A stretch of 9,592 nt of DNA from an uncultured Prevotellaceae bacterium (GTDB taxonomy: Bacteria; Bacteroidota; Bacteroidia; Bacteroidales; Bacteroidaceae), in contig CALAVF010000249.1 in NCBI GenBank assembly GCA_937892315.1, positions 1-9,592 on the forward strand. Direction: 5' to 3'. This document shows positions 5 through 9,031 of the stretch, in pieces. The notes beneath the pieces were generated by a model. It searched no databases. It was not told where the DNA came from and saw nothing but the letters and a program-made list of their open reading frames with translations. A program made the position numbers and the translations under genes. Positions within the stretch are counted from its first letter, which is position 1. Every line of letters starts with the position of its first letter.

Positions 5-1546
5 CTACAGTTCTGTTTGTTCTTCTTTCCAGTTGACGAAGAAGACGCGGCGGGTGGCTCGGGTGATGGCGGTGTAGAGCCAGCGGAAGTAGTCGGGGGT
101 GAGGAGGTCGTCGGTCATGTAGCCTTGGTCGATGAAGACGTTTGTCCACTGCCCGCCCTGGGCTTTGTGGCAGGTGACGGCGTAGGCGTACTTGACTTGC
201 AGGGCGTTGTAGTAGGGGTCTTGACGGAGGGCTTTGAGGCGGTCTTGCTTGGAGCGGAGGGTGGGGTCGCCAAGGTAGTCTTCCATTATATTATTAAATA
301 ATGTGTCCTGCTGCTCGCGTGTGAGGGCGGGGGCTTCGGCTTGGAGGGTGTCGGTGAGGAGGGTGAGTTCCATCTGGAAGCCGTCGTAGTCGGGAAACTC
401 CAGGGTGGCATCGGCGAAGGTGAAGCCGTAGAACTGGCGTTCGTTGCGGATGCGGCGGACGATGGCGGTGTCACCGTTGGCGATGAAGGAAAAGACCCTC
501 TCCTCCGTCCCCTCCCCCGTAATGGGGAGGGAGGAGCCATTCGGCTTGTTTTCTGACGACAAAGACCCCGCATGGTCTCCCTCCCCATTATGGGGGAGGG
601 TCGGGGAGAGGGTCTTCTCTGTCCAGAAGTAGTTGTTCTTCGCCACCATCAGCATGTCGCCGCCTTCGAGGGGCTCTTCTCGCCAGAGGATTTGGGCGCG
701 GATGCCGTTGTTGTAGATGTTGGCTCGCTTGTTGCTGCGGGTGACGACGATGGTTTCGTCCTCGCCGTCGCGATGGTAGCACTCTTCGAGGGCTTCGATG
801 AGTTCGTTTCCGGGGATGTTACGCACGTCGGGGAAGCCGTGGAAGCGGATTTTGGGGAACACAAAGATGTCCTCATTTTCGAGCAGGGTGCGCAGGTGGG
901 TGGCGTTCCAGAGGATGCCTGACGACTCGGCTTGCCTGACCACCTCGGTGAGGGTGTGGCTGACGACACGGAGCCCGTAGCCAGCCATGTAGTCATCGCT
1001 GAGGGCAGGGCTTTCGTCGTCGCCTACGGGAGGAAGTTGGGCGGTGTCGCCGAGGATGATGAGTCGGCACCCTCTGCCTCCATAGACGAAGTGTACCATG
1101 TCATCGAGCAGGCGTCCCGTGCCGTAGAGGCTGCCCGACAGGTACTCGTCGTTGGCTATCATCGATGCCTCGTCGCAGATGAAGAGGAGGTCGGTACGCA
1201 TGTTGTAGTTGAGCGTGAAGATACTGTCCTTGTCGATGGACTTCTGGCGGTAGATGCGTTTGTGGATGGTGAAGGCAGGGTGGTCGGCATAGAGGGAGAG
1301 CACCTTGGCGGCTCGTCCCGTGGGTGCCATGAGCACACACTCGCGCTCCAGTTGCTCCATCGTCTTGACAAGGGCGCTGACGAGGGATGTTTTTCCTGTT
1401 CCGGCAAAGCCTCGGAGGATGAAAATCTCATCGGCGTCGGGCGAGAGGATGAAATCGCACAACGAGTCGATGGCTTTTGCTTGTTGAGTGGTCGGTTTTA
1501 GACCGAAATGATGCAAAATCTGCTCTTTTAAGTAGTCTTTTATCAT
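5..1546 (-). CDS. RecD/Dda-like ATP-dependent SF1 DNA helicase carrying an in-frame repeat insertion
   Basis: Predicted 513-residue cytoplasmic DNA helicase of superfamily 1B (RecD2/Dda/Pif1 group), often annotated as exodeoxyribonuclease V subunit alpha although no recB or recC is seen nearby. Visible motifs in order: TTQQAKAID (19-27, Q-like motif), Walker A GFAGTGKTS (46-54), motif Ia APTGRAAK (74-81), TIHKRIY (93-99), Walker B DEAS (125-128), motif III GDTAQLPPVG (166-175), and the UvrD_C_2-type C-terminus with VTCHKAQGGQW (457-467) and YTAITRATRRV (491-501, arginine finger region). The start is the ATG at 1546 and the stop is TAG at 5-7, so the gene is complete. Residues about 311-352 come from a palindromic repeat (491-616) inserted between NNYFW and IANGD, a stretch that joins directly or by a short linker in the homologues I remember. 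This makes the protein longer than the roughly 460-475 residues I expect. All helicase motifs flank the insert intact, so the protein is probably functional. The family assignment is firm; the exact role in repair or recombination is not shown. Confidence 0.92.
   Translation of the reverse strand: MIKDYLKEQILHHFGLKPTTQQAKAIDSLCDFILSPDADEIFILRGFAGTGKTSLVSALVKTMEQLERECVLMAPTGRAAKVLSLYADHPAFTIHKRIYRQKSIDKDSIFTLNYNMRTDLLFICDEASMIANDEYLSGSLYGTGRLLDDMVHFVYGGRGCRLIILGDTAQLPPVGDDESPALSDDYMAGYGLRVVSHTLTEVVRQAESSGILWNATHLRTLLENEDIFVFPKIRFHGFPDVRNIPGNELIEALEECYHRDGEDETIVVTRSNKRANIYNNGIRAQILWREEPLEGGDMLMVAKNNYFWTEKTLSPTLPHNGEGDHAGSLSSENKPNGSSLPITGEGTEERVFSFIANGDTAIVRRIRNERQFYGFTFADATLEFPDYDGFQMELTLLTDTLQAEAPALTREQQDTLFNNIMEDYLGDPTLRSKQDRLKALRQDPYYNALQVKYAYAVTCHKAQGGQWTNVFIDQGYMTDDLLTPDYFRWLYTAITRATRRVFFVNWKEEQTEL
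491..616 (+). repeat. Palindromic G/C-rich repeat, copy A, inside the helicase gene
   Basis: Element of about 126 bp with terminal inverted repeats: AAGACCCTCTCC (492-503) is the exact reverse complement of 605-616. Inside these, 511-533 pairs with 577-599 at 22 of 23 positions, leaving a 43-bp centre (534-576). Each arm also holds its own small hairpin, for example CCCTCCCC (579-586) against GGGGAGGG (593-600) around ATTAT. It shares with copy B at 7844-7970: the first 12 bases, the block CTCCCCCGTAATGGGGAG (512-529), GAGCCATTCGG (534-544), and 38 of 39 bases of the right arm (576-614). It lies wholly inside the helicase frame on the minus strand and has no stop in that frame. No clear target-site duplication is visible. 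It has no transposase and no room for one, so it would be a non-autonomous or otherwise mobilised element. Confidence 0.85.
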
Positions 1547-3910: not shown

Positions 3911-4070
3911 ACCACAGATTCCTCAGATTACACGGATTCTCTTGACAAATTAGAGGCTGAATTTCACAGATTTTTTGGAAGCCCCGCAGGGCTTTCATCT
4001 GTGTAATTTTTGATAAATCTGTGTAATAGCCCTAAGCAGCCGACAAAAAAAATCTGTGTAATCTGTGGTG
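3911..4070. repeat. Intergenic inverted-repeat element built on the word ATCTGTGTAAT
   Basis: This fills most of the 209-bp gap between the convergent rsmD and receptor genes. The left end reads ACCACAGATT (3911-3920), then CAGATTACACGGATT (3924-3938). The right end AATCTGTGTAATCTGTGGT (4051-4069) is nearly its reverse complement. ATCTGTGTAAT occurs three times in the same direction (3997-4007, 4017-4027, 4052-4062), and a related CACAGATT is at 3965-3972. In the centre, AAGCCC (3979-3984) pairs with GGGCTT (3989-3994) around a 4-base loop. From memory, the same word is a common intergenic repeat in Bacteroidetes and some other phyla. No coding sequence is seen. It may also end transcription for either convergent gene, helped by the central hairpin and, on the minus strand, an eight-T run (4044-4051), but that is inference. 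Confidence 0.7.
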
Positions 4071-7212: not shown

Positions 7213-7842
7213 ATGAAAAAATATCTATTGCTCGTCTTCATTTTCAGTTCATTTTGTTCCGTGACGCTCCATGCTCAGTTTGGACGGCTCGACAAGTACC
7301 CTCAGATACCGTCGCAGTATGACGCCACGTTTGTCGATTACGTGAAAGACTTTGCCAGCGGTGTGGCAAAATCCTCCTTCGGTCAGTATTTCGGTCAGAT
7401 AACGAAGGAAAGGAACGTGTATGGCTTTGGTGCTTACTACACCGACAATGACGGCGTGATATACGGGCAGTACCGTCTGGGCAACTTCCTGTTCGGCATC
7501 AAGATGGGTGTGCAGATTGCCAAAGTGGGCAGCAACGACCATTACATCTGCTACGACCTCACCACGGGCGACCCGCTCTACATCATGAAGGATGGCGACA
7601 AGTATGCCCTTCCTGCCGACTATGGCAAAGTGTATCGTTTTGAGTCGTTGACCTATCAGAACGGTGACAAGTATGTGGGTGAGACCGTCAACGGAAAGCG
7701 TGATGGGGTAGGGCTGTATTATTATAGCAATGGCAACTACTACTATGGCAAGTATAAGAACAACGACCGCCAAGGCTTTGGTGCCATGTTCTACACCAAC
7801 AACACGATAACCATTCAGTATTGGAAAGGTGAAGATGAATAG
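7213..7842 (+). CDS. Secreted MORN-repeat protein
   Basis: 209 residues. Residues 1-21 look like a signal peptide (MKKYLLL, a hydrophobic core, then LHAQ), so the protein is probably exported to the periplasm or cell surface. Repeats of the MORN type (YxG.....G.G.) are visible: YGFGAYYTDNDGVIYGQYR near residues 70-88, then YQNGDKYVGETVNGKRDGVG near 153-172 and YYSNGNYYYGKYKNNDRQG near 174-192, followed by a partial unit FGAMFYTNN. MORN repeats form an open beta structure; in bacteria their ligands are mostly unknown. The stop at 7840-7842 lies beyond the menA ATG at 7835, so the two genes overlap by 8 bp and are likely translated in a coupled way. I see no functional link between a MORN protein and menaquinone synthesis, so the pairing may be positional only. 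Confidence 0.85.
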   Translation: MKKYLLLVFIFSSFCSVTLHAQFGRLDKYPQIPSQYDATFVDYVKDFASGVAKSSFGQYFGQITKERNVYGFGAYYTDNDGVIYGQYRLGNFLFGIKMGVQIAKVGSNDHYICYDLTTGDPLYIMKDGDKYALPADYGKVYRFESLTYQNGDKYVGETVNGKRDGVGLYYYSNGNYYYGKYKNNDRQGFGAMFYTNNTITIQYWKGEDE

Positions 7843-9031
7843 TAAAGACCCTCTCTGTCCTGACGGACATCTCCCCCGTAATGGGGAGAGCCATTCGGAT
7901 AGTAAGCCAACAGAGAACTCGTCGCAGGGTTCTCCCTCCCCATTATGGGGGAGGGTAGGGGAGAGGGTCCGTGTTTGGCTACTTGCCGCCCGTCCGAAGA
8001 CGCTGACAGGTGCCATCGCCCCCGTGTTGGTGGGTGGAGCAATGGCATTTGTGTTGACTTGTTCGCGAGTCATCAAAAAGAACATCGATATGTATGAAGG
8101 GCTCAATCTGAGCGACACCATCTTGCAGGGGCGGCTGGTCAGCGTCCTTGTTCCCTTTGTGCTCTGTCTGCTGTTCGCCCTGCTGATGCAGGTGGATGCC
8201 AACTTCATCAACGACTATTTTGACTTCAAGAAAGGTACCGACCGCGAAGACCGTCTGGGTCCCGAACGTGCGTGTGCTCAGGGGTGGATTACCCCTCGTG
8301 CCATGCAGATAGGCATCGTGGTCACCACGTTCCTTTCCTGCTGTGTCGGCATCCTGATTCTGCTGTGGCACATGCAGTTCGAACTCATCATTGTCGGCAT
8401 CCTTTGTGTCGTGTTCTGCTTCCTCTACACCACACGCCTCTCCTACCTGGGGTGGGGCGACGTGCTCGTTCTTGTTTTCTTCGGCATCGTTCCTGTTGTC
8501 TTCACATACTATGTGATGACCAATGGCGATTTCTCCTCGCCACTTGGAGAGGGCAGGGTGGAGGCTTCTGTCATCCTTGCCAGTTTGGCTATGGGCTTGG
8601 CAACCGACAACCTCCTGATGGTCAACAACTACCGTGACCGCAATCAAGACCGCATCAGCGGCAAGCGTACCCTTGTGGTGCGTACCATCGACCGCCAGAT
8701 AAAGAAACATGGAACCCAACAAGGGCAACTGAGAGGTGAACGCATCTGCCGTGCCTACTATCTCTGGATTGGCATCCTCGCCACGCTTCTTGCCTTCATC
8801 TCCCTCTTCCTGTTCCCCTTTTCCAACTGGCAGCATCAAGCGGAAGATGCTTCATCCTTCACGTTCCACGCTTCATTTTTCCTCCTCCTCATCTATCTCC
8901 TCCTCCATCTTCTTGCCTACAGCAAACTCAAGAAACTGGACGGCAAAGCCCTCAATCAAGTCCTCGGCACCACCGCCCGCAACATCTTCCTGTTCGGCCT
9001 CCTCTTGGCTGCCAGCGTGCTTCTGTCGTGA
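7835..9031 (+). CDS. menA: 1,4-dihydroxy-2-naphthoate polyprenyltransferase MenA with a repeat-derived N-terminus
   Basis: Integral membrane UbiA-family prenyltransferase that joins a polyprenyl chain to 1,4-dihydroxy-2-naphthoate in menaquinone synthesis. The ATG at 7835 gives 398 residues; GGAAAGG at 7823-7829 is a well-placed ribosome site. A GTG at 7829 is an alternative. The conserved protein begins at WLLAARPKTL (residue 48 on). The first aspartate motif is NDYFDFKKGTDREDR (126-140), followed by LGPERACAQGW, and the second is DNLLMVNNYRDRNQD (258-272). About eight hydrophobic helices are visible. Residues about 4-45 come from the palindromic repeat at 7844-7970. No ATG, GTG or TTG occurs in frame within that repeat, and the next in-frame starts would remove WLLAARPKTL, so the repeat must be translated. 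The protein is long for MenA (about 290-310 expected). Other extra stretches are SSPLGEGRVEA (234-244), a possible degenerate repeat, and a loop near 283-296. The family call is firm; activity is inferred from intact motifs. Confidence 0.92.
   Translation: MNSKDPLCPDGHLPRNGESHSDSKPTENSSQGSPSPLWGRVGERVRVWLLAARPKTLTGAIAPVLVGGAMAFVLTCSRVIKKNIDMYEGLNLSDTILQGRLVSVLVPFVLCLLFALLMQVDANFINDYFDFKKGTDREDRLGPERACAQGWITPRAMQIGIVVTTFLSCCVGILILLWHMQFELIIVGILCVVFCFLYTTRLSYLGWGDVLVLVFFGIVPVVFTYYVMTNGDFSSPLGEGRVEASVILASLAMGLATDNLLMVNNYRDRNQDRISGKRTLVVRTIDRQIKKHGTQQGQLRGERICRAYYLWIGILATLLAFISLFLFPFSNWQHQAEDASSFTFHASFFLLLIYLLLHLLAYSKLKKLDGKALNQVLGTTARNIFLFGLLLAASVLLS
7844..7970 (+). repeat. Palindromic G/C-rich repeat, copy B, forming the start of menA
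   Basis: Second copy of the element at 491-616, in the same orientation on the plus strand. GACCCTCTC (7847-7855) pairs with 7961-7969, and CTCCCCCGTAATGGGGAG (7871-7888) pairs with 7936-7953 at 17 of 18 positions. The right arm 7931-7969 matches copy A at 38 of 39 positions, while the centre (7899-7930) has diverged almost fully. The left arm carries an extra small hairpin not found in copy A: TGTCC (7856-7860) with GGACA (7865-7869). The element begins two to three codons after the menA ATG and is read in frame from the plus strand, whereas copy A is read from the minus strand. In this copy both strands have long stop-free frames. Confidence 0.85.
8531..8563 (+). repeat. Possible degenerate relative of the palindromic repeat inside menA
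   Basis: The codons here give FSSPLGEGRVE, which resembles the SPSPLWGRVGERV peptide encoded by the right arm of the palindromic repeat. The DNA has CTCC (8533-8536) and GGAG (8545-8548) placed to form a weak stem, followed by a G-rich tail like that of the right arm. It lies in the loop between TYYVMTNGD and VILASLAMG, where the MenA proteins I remember are shorter. The match is short and could reflect convergence in a G/C-rich loop. Confidence 0.35.

Follow-up and report, generated by a model that had tools for sequence, protein, structure and literature searches.

The window analysed here, a stretch of 9,592 nucleotides from an uncultured Prevotellaceae bacterium, carries a palindromic element that is read in frame within a helicase gene. 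This copy very probably belongs to a family of non-autonomous palindromic mobile elements tolerated in frame in protein loops, with several such families reusing the same loops. The features of the window are as follows:

5-1546, minus strand: RecD2/Dda-like SF1 helicase, the first host gene, 513 aa, with the Pfam domains AAA_30 and UvrD_C_2
493-615, minus strand: element copy 1 (AGACCC...GGGTCT), about 123 bp, encoding helicase residues about 311-352, K-TLSPTLPHNGEGDHAGSLSSENKPNGSSLPITGEGTEERV-F
510-533 and 577-600: inner inverted-repeat arms, 24 nt, 96% complementary
489-516 and 592-619: outer arms, 28 nt, 75% complementary
7835-9031, plus strand: MenA (UbiA family), the second host gene, start ATG at 7835
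7846-7969: element copy 2, B-end first on the plus strand, translated near the MenA N-terminus

The element in its two host genes of the window

The earlier note on this DNA had described an inverted repeat at about 491-616 that is read in frame, and this was borne out by the arms and by the predicted fold, with the borders now set at 493-615. The minus strand of 491-616 folded with -49.1 kcal/mol as compared to -22.2 ± 2.8 kcal/mol for 200 dinucleotide shuffles, none of which reached the same value (z -9.74). Each inner arm is itself a near-palindrome (CCCTCCCC..AT..GGGGAGGG). The element ends in two unlike hairpins placed in inverted orientation around a spacer, the A-end being AGACCCTCTCCCC-x-CCCTCCCCCATAATGGGGAGGG and the B-end AGACCCTCTCTGTCC-TTCG-GGACATCTCCCC..GGGGAG. 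Among 76 ends from 38 full-length copies (window and the genomes G001 and G013, see below) the commonest form of the inner hairpin was a stem of 7-8 bp with a loop of 6 nt; one long hairpin is an alternative fold of the whole element. The terminal inverted repeats comprise at least 10 bp (AGACCCTCTC...GAGAGGGTCT), the sizes range from 94 to 180 bp and the encoded peptide is of the type TLSPTLPHNGEG. No Rfam covariance model matched the window at gathering score. Another palindromic repeat, with a sequence different from that of the element, was observed at 3911-4069 (ACCACAGATT...AATCTGTGGT) between RsmD and a TonB-receptor-like gene. The exact 22-nt core of the arm was also seen in one IMG/VR contig (L253, 6106-6127), which may be a host fragment.

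The helicase matched the RecD2 family with an E-value of 1e-35 and 123 bits, under the RecD2 cut-off of 500, and its Foldseek neighbours were DSH9, Dda and RecD2. The open reading frame runs uninterrupted across the element, with AAA_30 and UvrD_C_2 recognised one on each side, in agreement with the earlier claim that the helicase motifs are kept on both sides of the repeat. In an AlphaFold2 model (mean pLDDT 69.9, 39 sequences) residues 304-354 had a pLDDT below 50, and this stretch joins the strands 298-303 and 360-372. As modelled, the element encodes a disordered loop between two helicase strands.

For comparison with orthologues we used 120 listed homologous proteins, of which all but P0051 and P0073 (118) fitted the loop pattern, together with the best 80 of 166 confirmed genome loci. 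The site was found to be a variable linker, mostly of 8 residues in Bacteroides and Phocaeicola and of about 28 in the closest relatives (TEKLALEYLANAKAEGKTPEEAETVPFD). From NNYYW to FIANGD the window has 45 residues as compared to about 28 different residues in the closest orthologues, and the whole protein has 513 aa as compared to mostly 495-496 aa. A clean insertion opposite a clean gap was ruled out, as another linker occupies the site in the helicase orthologues. Because the closest orthologues hold this other linker of about 28 residues, we concluded that the element replaces a variable loop rather than plainly adding 42 residues. The earlier statement that some 42 residues are added was therefore right in that residues about 311-352 are encoded by the element, and wrong as to the gain, which is about 17 aa net; the clean gap expected at 311-352 in the aligned orthologues was absent. 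The element residues were found only in the nearest relative (L001) among the best 80 of the 166 confirmed loci; as far as these 80 loci show, they are not conserved protein sequence shared by unrelated genera.

The encoded residues resemble a linker, and loop length is variable within the helicase family, as would be the case for an ordinary protein linker whose DNA is palindromic by chance. We give this reading practically no credence, since the same DNA was found in tens of other genes as well as between genes, and the fold has a z-score of -9.7.

Copy 2, which the finding in the earlier note leaves out, shares 97% identity with copy 1 over the 39-nt arm. The start codon of MenA lies upstream of this copy, the same start is kept in the element-free locus L002, and in both window and L002 it overlaps the end of the preceding gene. 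After ATG AAT AGT there are about 15 bp in L002 and about 126 bp in the window, followed by matching MenA codons; by hand count the net difference between empty and filled site is 111 bp. As read from the sequence, no ATG, GTG or TTG occurs in frame within the element or from the element to the conserved RPKTL motif. Since the start is upstream and no later in-frame start precedes RPKTL, the element would have to be translated for full-length MenA to be made. MenA is the one case in which the loss of the old loop was compared closely at the DNA level.

The helicase copy was compared with that of the genome G001, a metagenome-assembled genome (MAG) from roe deer rumen whose helicase is 94% identical to that of the window, and which served as proxy for the genome of the window. 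The copies were identical at 121 of 123 nt, the flanks at 844 of 933 and 453 of 480. At unchanged residues the third positions agreed in 39 of 39 cases in the element and in 244 of 288 and 140 of 154 cases in the flanks (Fisher p 0.009). Between window 493-615 and L131 13122-13248 the element was observed to be more conserved between species than the gene around it, third positions included. The MenA copies of window and G001 were identical at 118 of 127 positions, the stretch that follows at 414 of 550 aligned positions (100 gap columns) and the preceding gene at 434 of 533 (19 gap columns). Any one of three processes would account for the excess conservation of the element: conversion between copies, a constraint acting on the hairpin, or recent exchange.

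Homologous recombination or gene conversion between repeats could in principle also have spread the copies into tolerant loops in place of transposition. The helicase copy, more alike than its flanks, fits such a process, and so do the hybrid-looking inserts in MurF-Alr (proteins P0251 and P0252; DNA of G030, G044 and G027). However, conversion needs an earlier copy at the target site, and the copies lie in tens of unrelated genes with flanks unlike one another, and we therefore regard it as an unlikely alternative to a mobile family.

Copies within and between genes

The earlier note had suggested a count of the copies inside and outside genes, and in G001, the nearest relative, copies of both kinds were found. 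There, 87 raw matches were obtained, many places matching on both strands, and 34 copies or half-copies were scored. The scoring left out a copy truncated at the beginning of contig C36 as well as weak, chance-like matches, and it included the weak half-copies L113:1690 (E 1e-4) and L117:1944 (E 0.2). Twenty-four of the 34 lie in frame inside 21 open reading frames. The other 10 comprise seven located between genes or immediately before a start, one at a contig edge (in frame, before CbiC), one at the MenA N-terminus and one undecided. In a stricter test by codon preference on the same 34 copies, 16 were in frame, 15 had one side below threshold, two were in another frame and one contained a stop; L124:4514 is among these 16, yet was classed as intergenic in the main scoring.

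A Pfam family was recognised in 16 of the 21 host frames of G001: UvrA, LeuRS, HlyD-like, GH43, glycosyltransferase 2, TopB, MutS2, GSCFA, MurF-Alr, DUF3108, HI0933-like, PcRGLX, CbiJ-CbiD, a sigma-54 regulator, shikimate dehydrogenase and the helicase. The remaining five had no Pfam match (L112, L129 and the small frames L084, L113 and L116); by eye L112 is VirE/primase-like and L129 TonB-receptor-like.

In a second genome, G013, 69 matches in 29 loci were resolved into 21 distinct places, of which 14 lie in frame in open reading frames, three are intergenic, one is at the 5' end of an EtfA-like frame and three are undecided. All 14 in-frame hosts matched a Pfam family: GH88, MatE, aminotransferase, HhH-GPD with NUDIX_4 (MutY), UvrB_inter with CarD and DEAD (Mfd), TPR, CTP_transf_like, TopB, TP_methylase-CbiC, Competence, PFL-like, MutS2, CobD/CbiB and ArsP_1. 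Beyond the 21 places, this genome has two more copies in comEA-like genes. In UvrA, LeuRS, TopB, MutS2, MurF-Alr, CbiJ/CbiD, MutY, Mfd, PFL, GH88, CbiB and the ArsP-like protein the recognised domains flank or span the insert. The insert site of UvrA comprises only 7 residues in a solved UvrA structure (9gxk); the predicted UvrA structure had a pLDDT of 40, too low to be used. We observed that hosts of DNA repair, recombination and topology recur in the two genomes (UvrA, MutS2 twice, TopB twice, MutY, Mfd and the RecD2-like helicase), as do cobalamin genes (CbiJ-D, CbiB and also the stretch before CbiC in both).

Within the genus 30 of 45 genomes, MAGs among them, contained a match to the element (E ≤ 1e-3). 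In a sample of the family 13 of 301 genomes matched (E ≤ 1e-10, best two candidates per genome), 10 already known from the genus and three outside it.

The element was found in two forms. Most full-length copies in genes measure 94-130 bp. Between genes most measure 143-170 bp and have an AT-rich spacer, and five of ten of these intergenic copies have no open frame at all. Some copies in genes are longer: L112 (181 bp), L124:11160 (142 bp) and two of G013, L236 and L240, measured by pattern at 148 and 190 bp and resembling two half-copies. With copy orientation taken from the translations, the TLSPTLP.NGEG frame is used by 18 of 24 full-length in-frame copies (p 4e-5 against one third, p 0.02 against one half), and by 20 of 26 when L084 and L225 are added. 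The exceptions are L112, L124:11160, L242, MenA and two comEA copies; half-copies were not counted here, and other frames are used by at least two, L115 and L119. In hydropathy the frame in use differs little from the other open frames, being slightly more hydrophilic (-0.92, n=18, as compared to -0.72, n=40). The short, stop-poor genic form, the long AT-rich intergenic form and the one favoured frame make it possible that the element is adapted to being read by its host, and filtering by selection in the host explains the same observations equally well.

The inserted peptide might moreover be selected in the host, for instance by altering DNA repair, a speculation made by Di Nocera et al. for REPs inside genes. 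The preference for one frame would fit, and so would the hosts RecD2-like helicase, UvrA, TopB and MutS2 in G001 and MutY, Mfd, TopB and MutS2 in G013, these names being partly domain readings. We nevertheless find such a benefit rather doubtful: GH43, GH88, AroE, LeuRS, CbiB and PFL are hosts too, the disordered insert differs from family to family, the hydropathy of the used frame differs little, and the recurrence of repair genes is a raw count over the hosts of two genomes.

Loops shared by unrelated palindromes

Several unrelated palindromic families share the same loops of the helicase, UvrA and MurF-Alr in sister species, a use of loops that the earlier note had not foreseen. Families were labelled by peptide motif, some of them on short remnants, A being the element of the window. 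In the UvrA loop (QVMV to HYSKRLMCP, 120 homologues) we found A in 3, B in 5, D in 8, E in 11 and F in 2 proteins, and 91 were unlabelled. The helicase loop (121 rows including the window) contained A in 3, B in 9, C in 3 and D in 2, with 104 unlabelled, and the MurF-Alr loop (120 rows) A in 10 including hybrids, B in 1 and D in 3, with 106 unlabelled, some of which look like remnants. On FastTree trees made without the loop, the minimum number of label changes was 13 for UvrA, 8 for the helicase and 8 for MurF-Alr, gains and losses being merged and branch support unused; helicase family C may account for two changes instead of three, P0006 having been labelled by a guessed motif without repeat support.

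The DNA of the loops within the genus gave a similar picture. Among 30 UvrA loci A, B and E were present; among 30 MurF-Alr loci (7 without a pattern match) we found A, hybrids of A with others, a further hairpin (G013, G011) and D-like remnants. Most loci of both genes had short loops. With mononucleotide shuffles the fold z-scores were -11.3 and -7.9 for A, -11.7 and -4.1 for B, -6.8 for C, -6.1 for E and -6.9 for the G013 hairpin, as compared to -1.2 for an empty loop and +1.2 for neighbouring coding DNA. B and C are multicopy, with matches in 20 and 21 of the 45 genomes, and D has one clear non-coding copy in the DNA examined. The reading of E and F as mobile repeats rests on their palindromic look and their recurrence, because no clear non-coding copy of either was seen in the DNA examined.

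The presence of unrelated repeats in identical loops of sister species suggests that mobile DNA reshapes bacterial proteins. According to the explanation we favour, a non-autonomous palindromic family, mostly about 95-130 bp long in genes, would have spread through the chromosomes of an uncultured genus of gut Bacteroidaceae. Its copies in coding DNA would persist only where the host tolerates a disordered in-frame stretch of about 40 residues, that is, in surface loops, at domain joints and at termini, where the old loop would be displaced. Unrelated palindromic families would reuse the same tolerant loops, and decayed remnants would stay as new loop sequence. We infer that purifying selection acts as the filter on coding insertions, and that the element moves via a single-stranded hairpin with a RAYT-like HUH transposase acting in trans. 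A bolder version, which we put forward tentatively and hold to be somewhat improbable, is that a guild of unrelated palindromes, some of them selected to be stop-free, repeatedly colonises, replaces and decays in the same surface loops of proteins for housekeeping and DNA repair, that mobile DNA is a main source of new loop sequence, and that one RAYT-like family serves several of the palindromes.

Movement and known systems

At the exact outer borders no direct repeat of at least 3 bp was found in any of 41 copies, and allowing the borders to shift by as much as 3 bp yielded one in 41; these rows exclude those with a border set inside the element, and a version with 51 rows gave the same outcome. 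HUH enzymes insert single strands, and the lack of a target-site duplication is consistent with them and speaks against a DDE transposase. The terminal inverted repeats and the size of 94-180 bp would also suit a MITE moved by a DDE transposase whose parent transposon is absent or elsewhere. We consider this improbable in view of the borders, and because no transposon with these ends was found in the loci examined: three end pairs lay 1.5-2.4 kb apart, and their longest open reading frames were not transposase-like by eye. An autonomous element with the same ends was likewise not recognised among the loci examined.

Movement by an HUH enzyme, which we favour, was followed up among the transposases of the genus. 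Pfam Y1_Tnp had matches in 20 of 45 genomes and exceeded the cut-off in 14. A canonical Y1 transposase, the obvious partner, was rejected, as it is missing from several element-rich genomes (G008, G013, G036 and G037). A scan of 25 Y1 loci, allowing one mismatch to the hairpin core or to the 10-nt ends, found no hairpin; isolated 10-mers were present in L181, L183, L186 and L195. A RAYT-like family, in which a conserved stretch beyond the Y1 core was observed, had profile matches in 37 of 45 genomes, often several in each and sometimes partial. Its full-length frames are mostly about 320-440 aa (L316, L332, L333 and others), and both members scanned matched NCBIfam REP_Tyr_transpos below cut-off (E 5e-14 and 4e-9). 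Mere presence of this family does not explain the element counts, because the 37 genomes include G008, G013, G036 and G037.

We examined 40 RAYT-like loci, 20 returned by the search and 20 picked by hand, some of them ending at contig ends. In six, an element lay no more than 1.3 kb away; all six belong to a single comEA-RAYT neighbourhood, with the element 654-732 bp from the RAYT gene. In the other 34 the available flanks contained none. In these six genomes (L332, L333-L337) the element lies in frame right after the hydrophobic N-terminal stretch of a comEA-like gene beside the RAYT-like gene, and in G013 the comEA-like gene occurs twice, both times with the element (L332, 132-247 and 3220-3334). 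When 12 loci were grouped with this neighbourhood by score, not by tree, the element was present in 6 of 12 as compared to 0 of 28 others (p 2e-4). The six copies are probably one inherited insertion, and the RAYT-like partner is for this reason put forward as a hypothesis: a candidate family exists, and its link to the element is weak.

Several known systems share traits with the element. GTAG/CGTC REPs are, in the available part of Di Nocera et al. 2013 (PMC3733652), short hairpins in inverted pairs, some in open reading frames and many of these in repair genes; recB is a target in two Xanthomonas species, at roughly the same position, and CGTC repeats were reported in Bacteroidetes and as having no dedicated transposase. 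REPs inside genes, hosts with repair functions and a site shared between two Xanthomonas (recB) are already in print (PMC3733652). The element resembles these REPs in its short inverted hairpins and in having some copies in frames of repair genes. According to the same extract most REPs are intergenic, whereas most scored copies of the element lie in open reading frames (PMC3733652). Identity with these REPs was rejected, since GTAG was found at 0 and CGTC at 3 of the 76 ends of 38 full-length copies from the window, G001 and G013.

The element has in common with REPIN/BIME two inverted hairpins around a spacer, the lack of a target-site duplication and a RAYT-like family in 37 of 45 genomes. 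It appears to differ in that, at the 40 loci examined, some of them cut by contig ends, the RAYT-like genes are not closely flanked by it, the one linked neighbourhood having it 654-732 bp away inside comEA. Like MITEs it is small and non-autonomous with terminal inverted repeats of at least 10 bp; a classical MITE was rejected, as there was no target-site duplication (0 of 41) and no parent transposon was found in the loci examined.

Rickettsia, with its reduced genomes under presumably weak selection, is the best-known home of in-frame palindromic elements. In the available portion of a 2024 review, in-frame elements in other prokaryotes are called merely conceivable (PMC10969869). The retrieved parts of the literature searched contained no description of the element family of the window, of in-frame palindromic elements in Bacteroidales, of a palindromic family in Bacteroidota located mainly inside open reading frames, or of loops shared by several unrelated families. 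The gut Bacteroidota described here are a dense case, and the 45 genomes of the genus form a natural experiment in which occupied, empty and decayed versions of a loop can be compared, so that mobile DNA as supplier of protein loops becomes a directly testable question. Some caution is called for, as gene calls in these bacteria include repeat-encoded residues in core proteins.

Rickettsia palindromic elements are, in the accessible sections of the review, repeats of about 150 bp in ten families with 44 insertions in R. conorii, nearly half of them in open reading frames, fused in frame to unrelated genes (PMC10969869). The resemblance in principle that the earlier note had drawn stood up as an analogy, the element likewise being a palindromic repeat family in frame inside unrelated open reading frames. 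The lineage is Bacteroidota, and the likeness drawn here is one of behaviour. To be set beside the Rickettsia elements are the short stop-poor genic and long AT-rich intergenic forms, the displaced loop residues and the sharing of loops by unrelated families. By analogy, the element works like the Rickettsia palindromic elements in another phylum.
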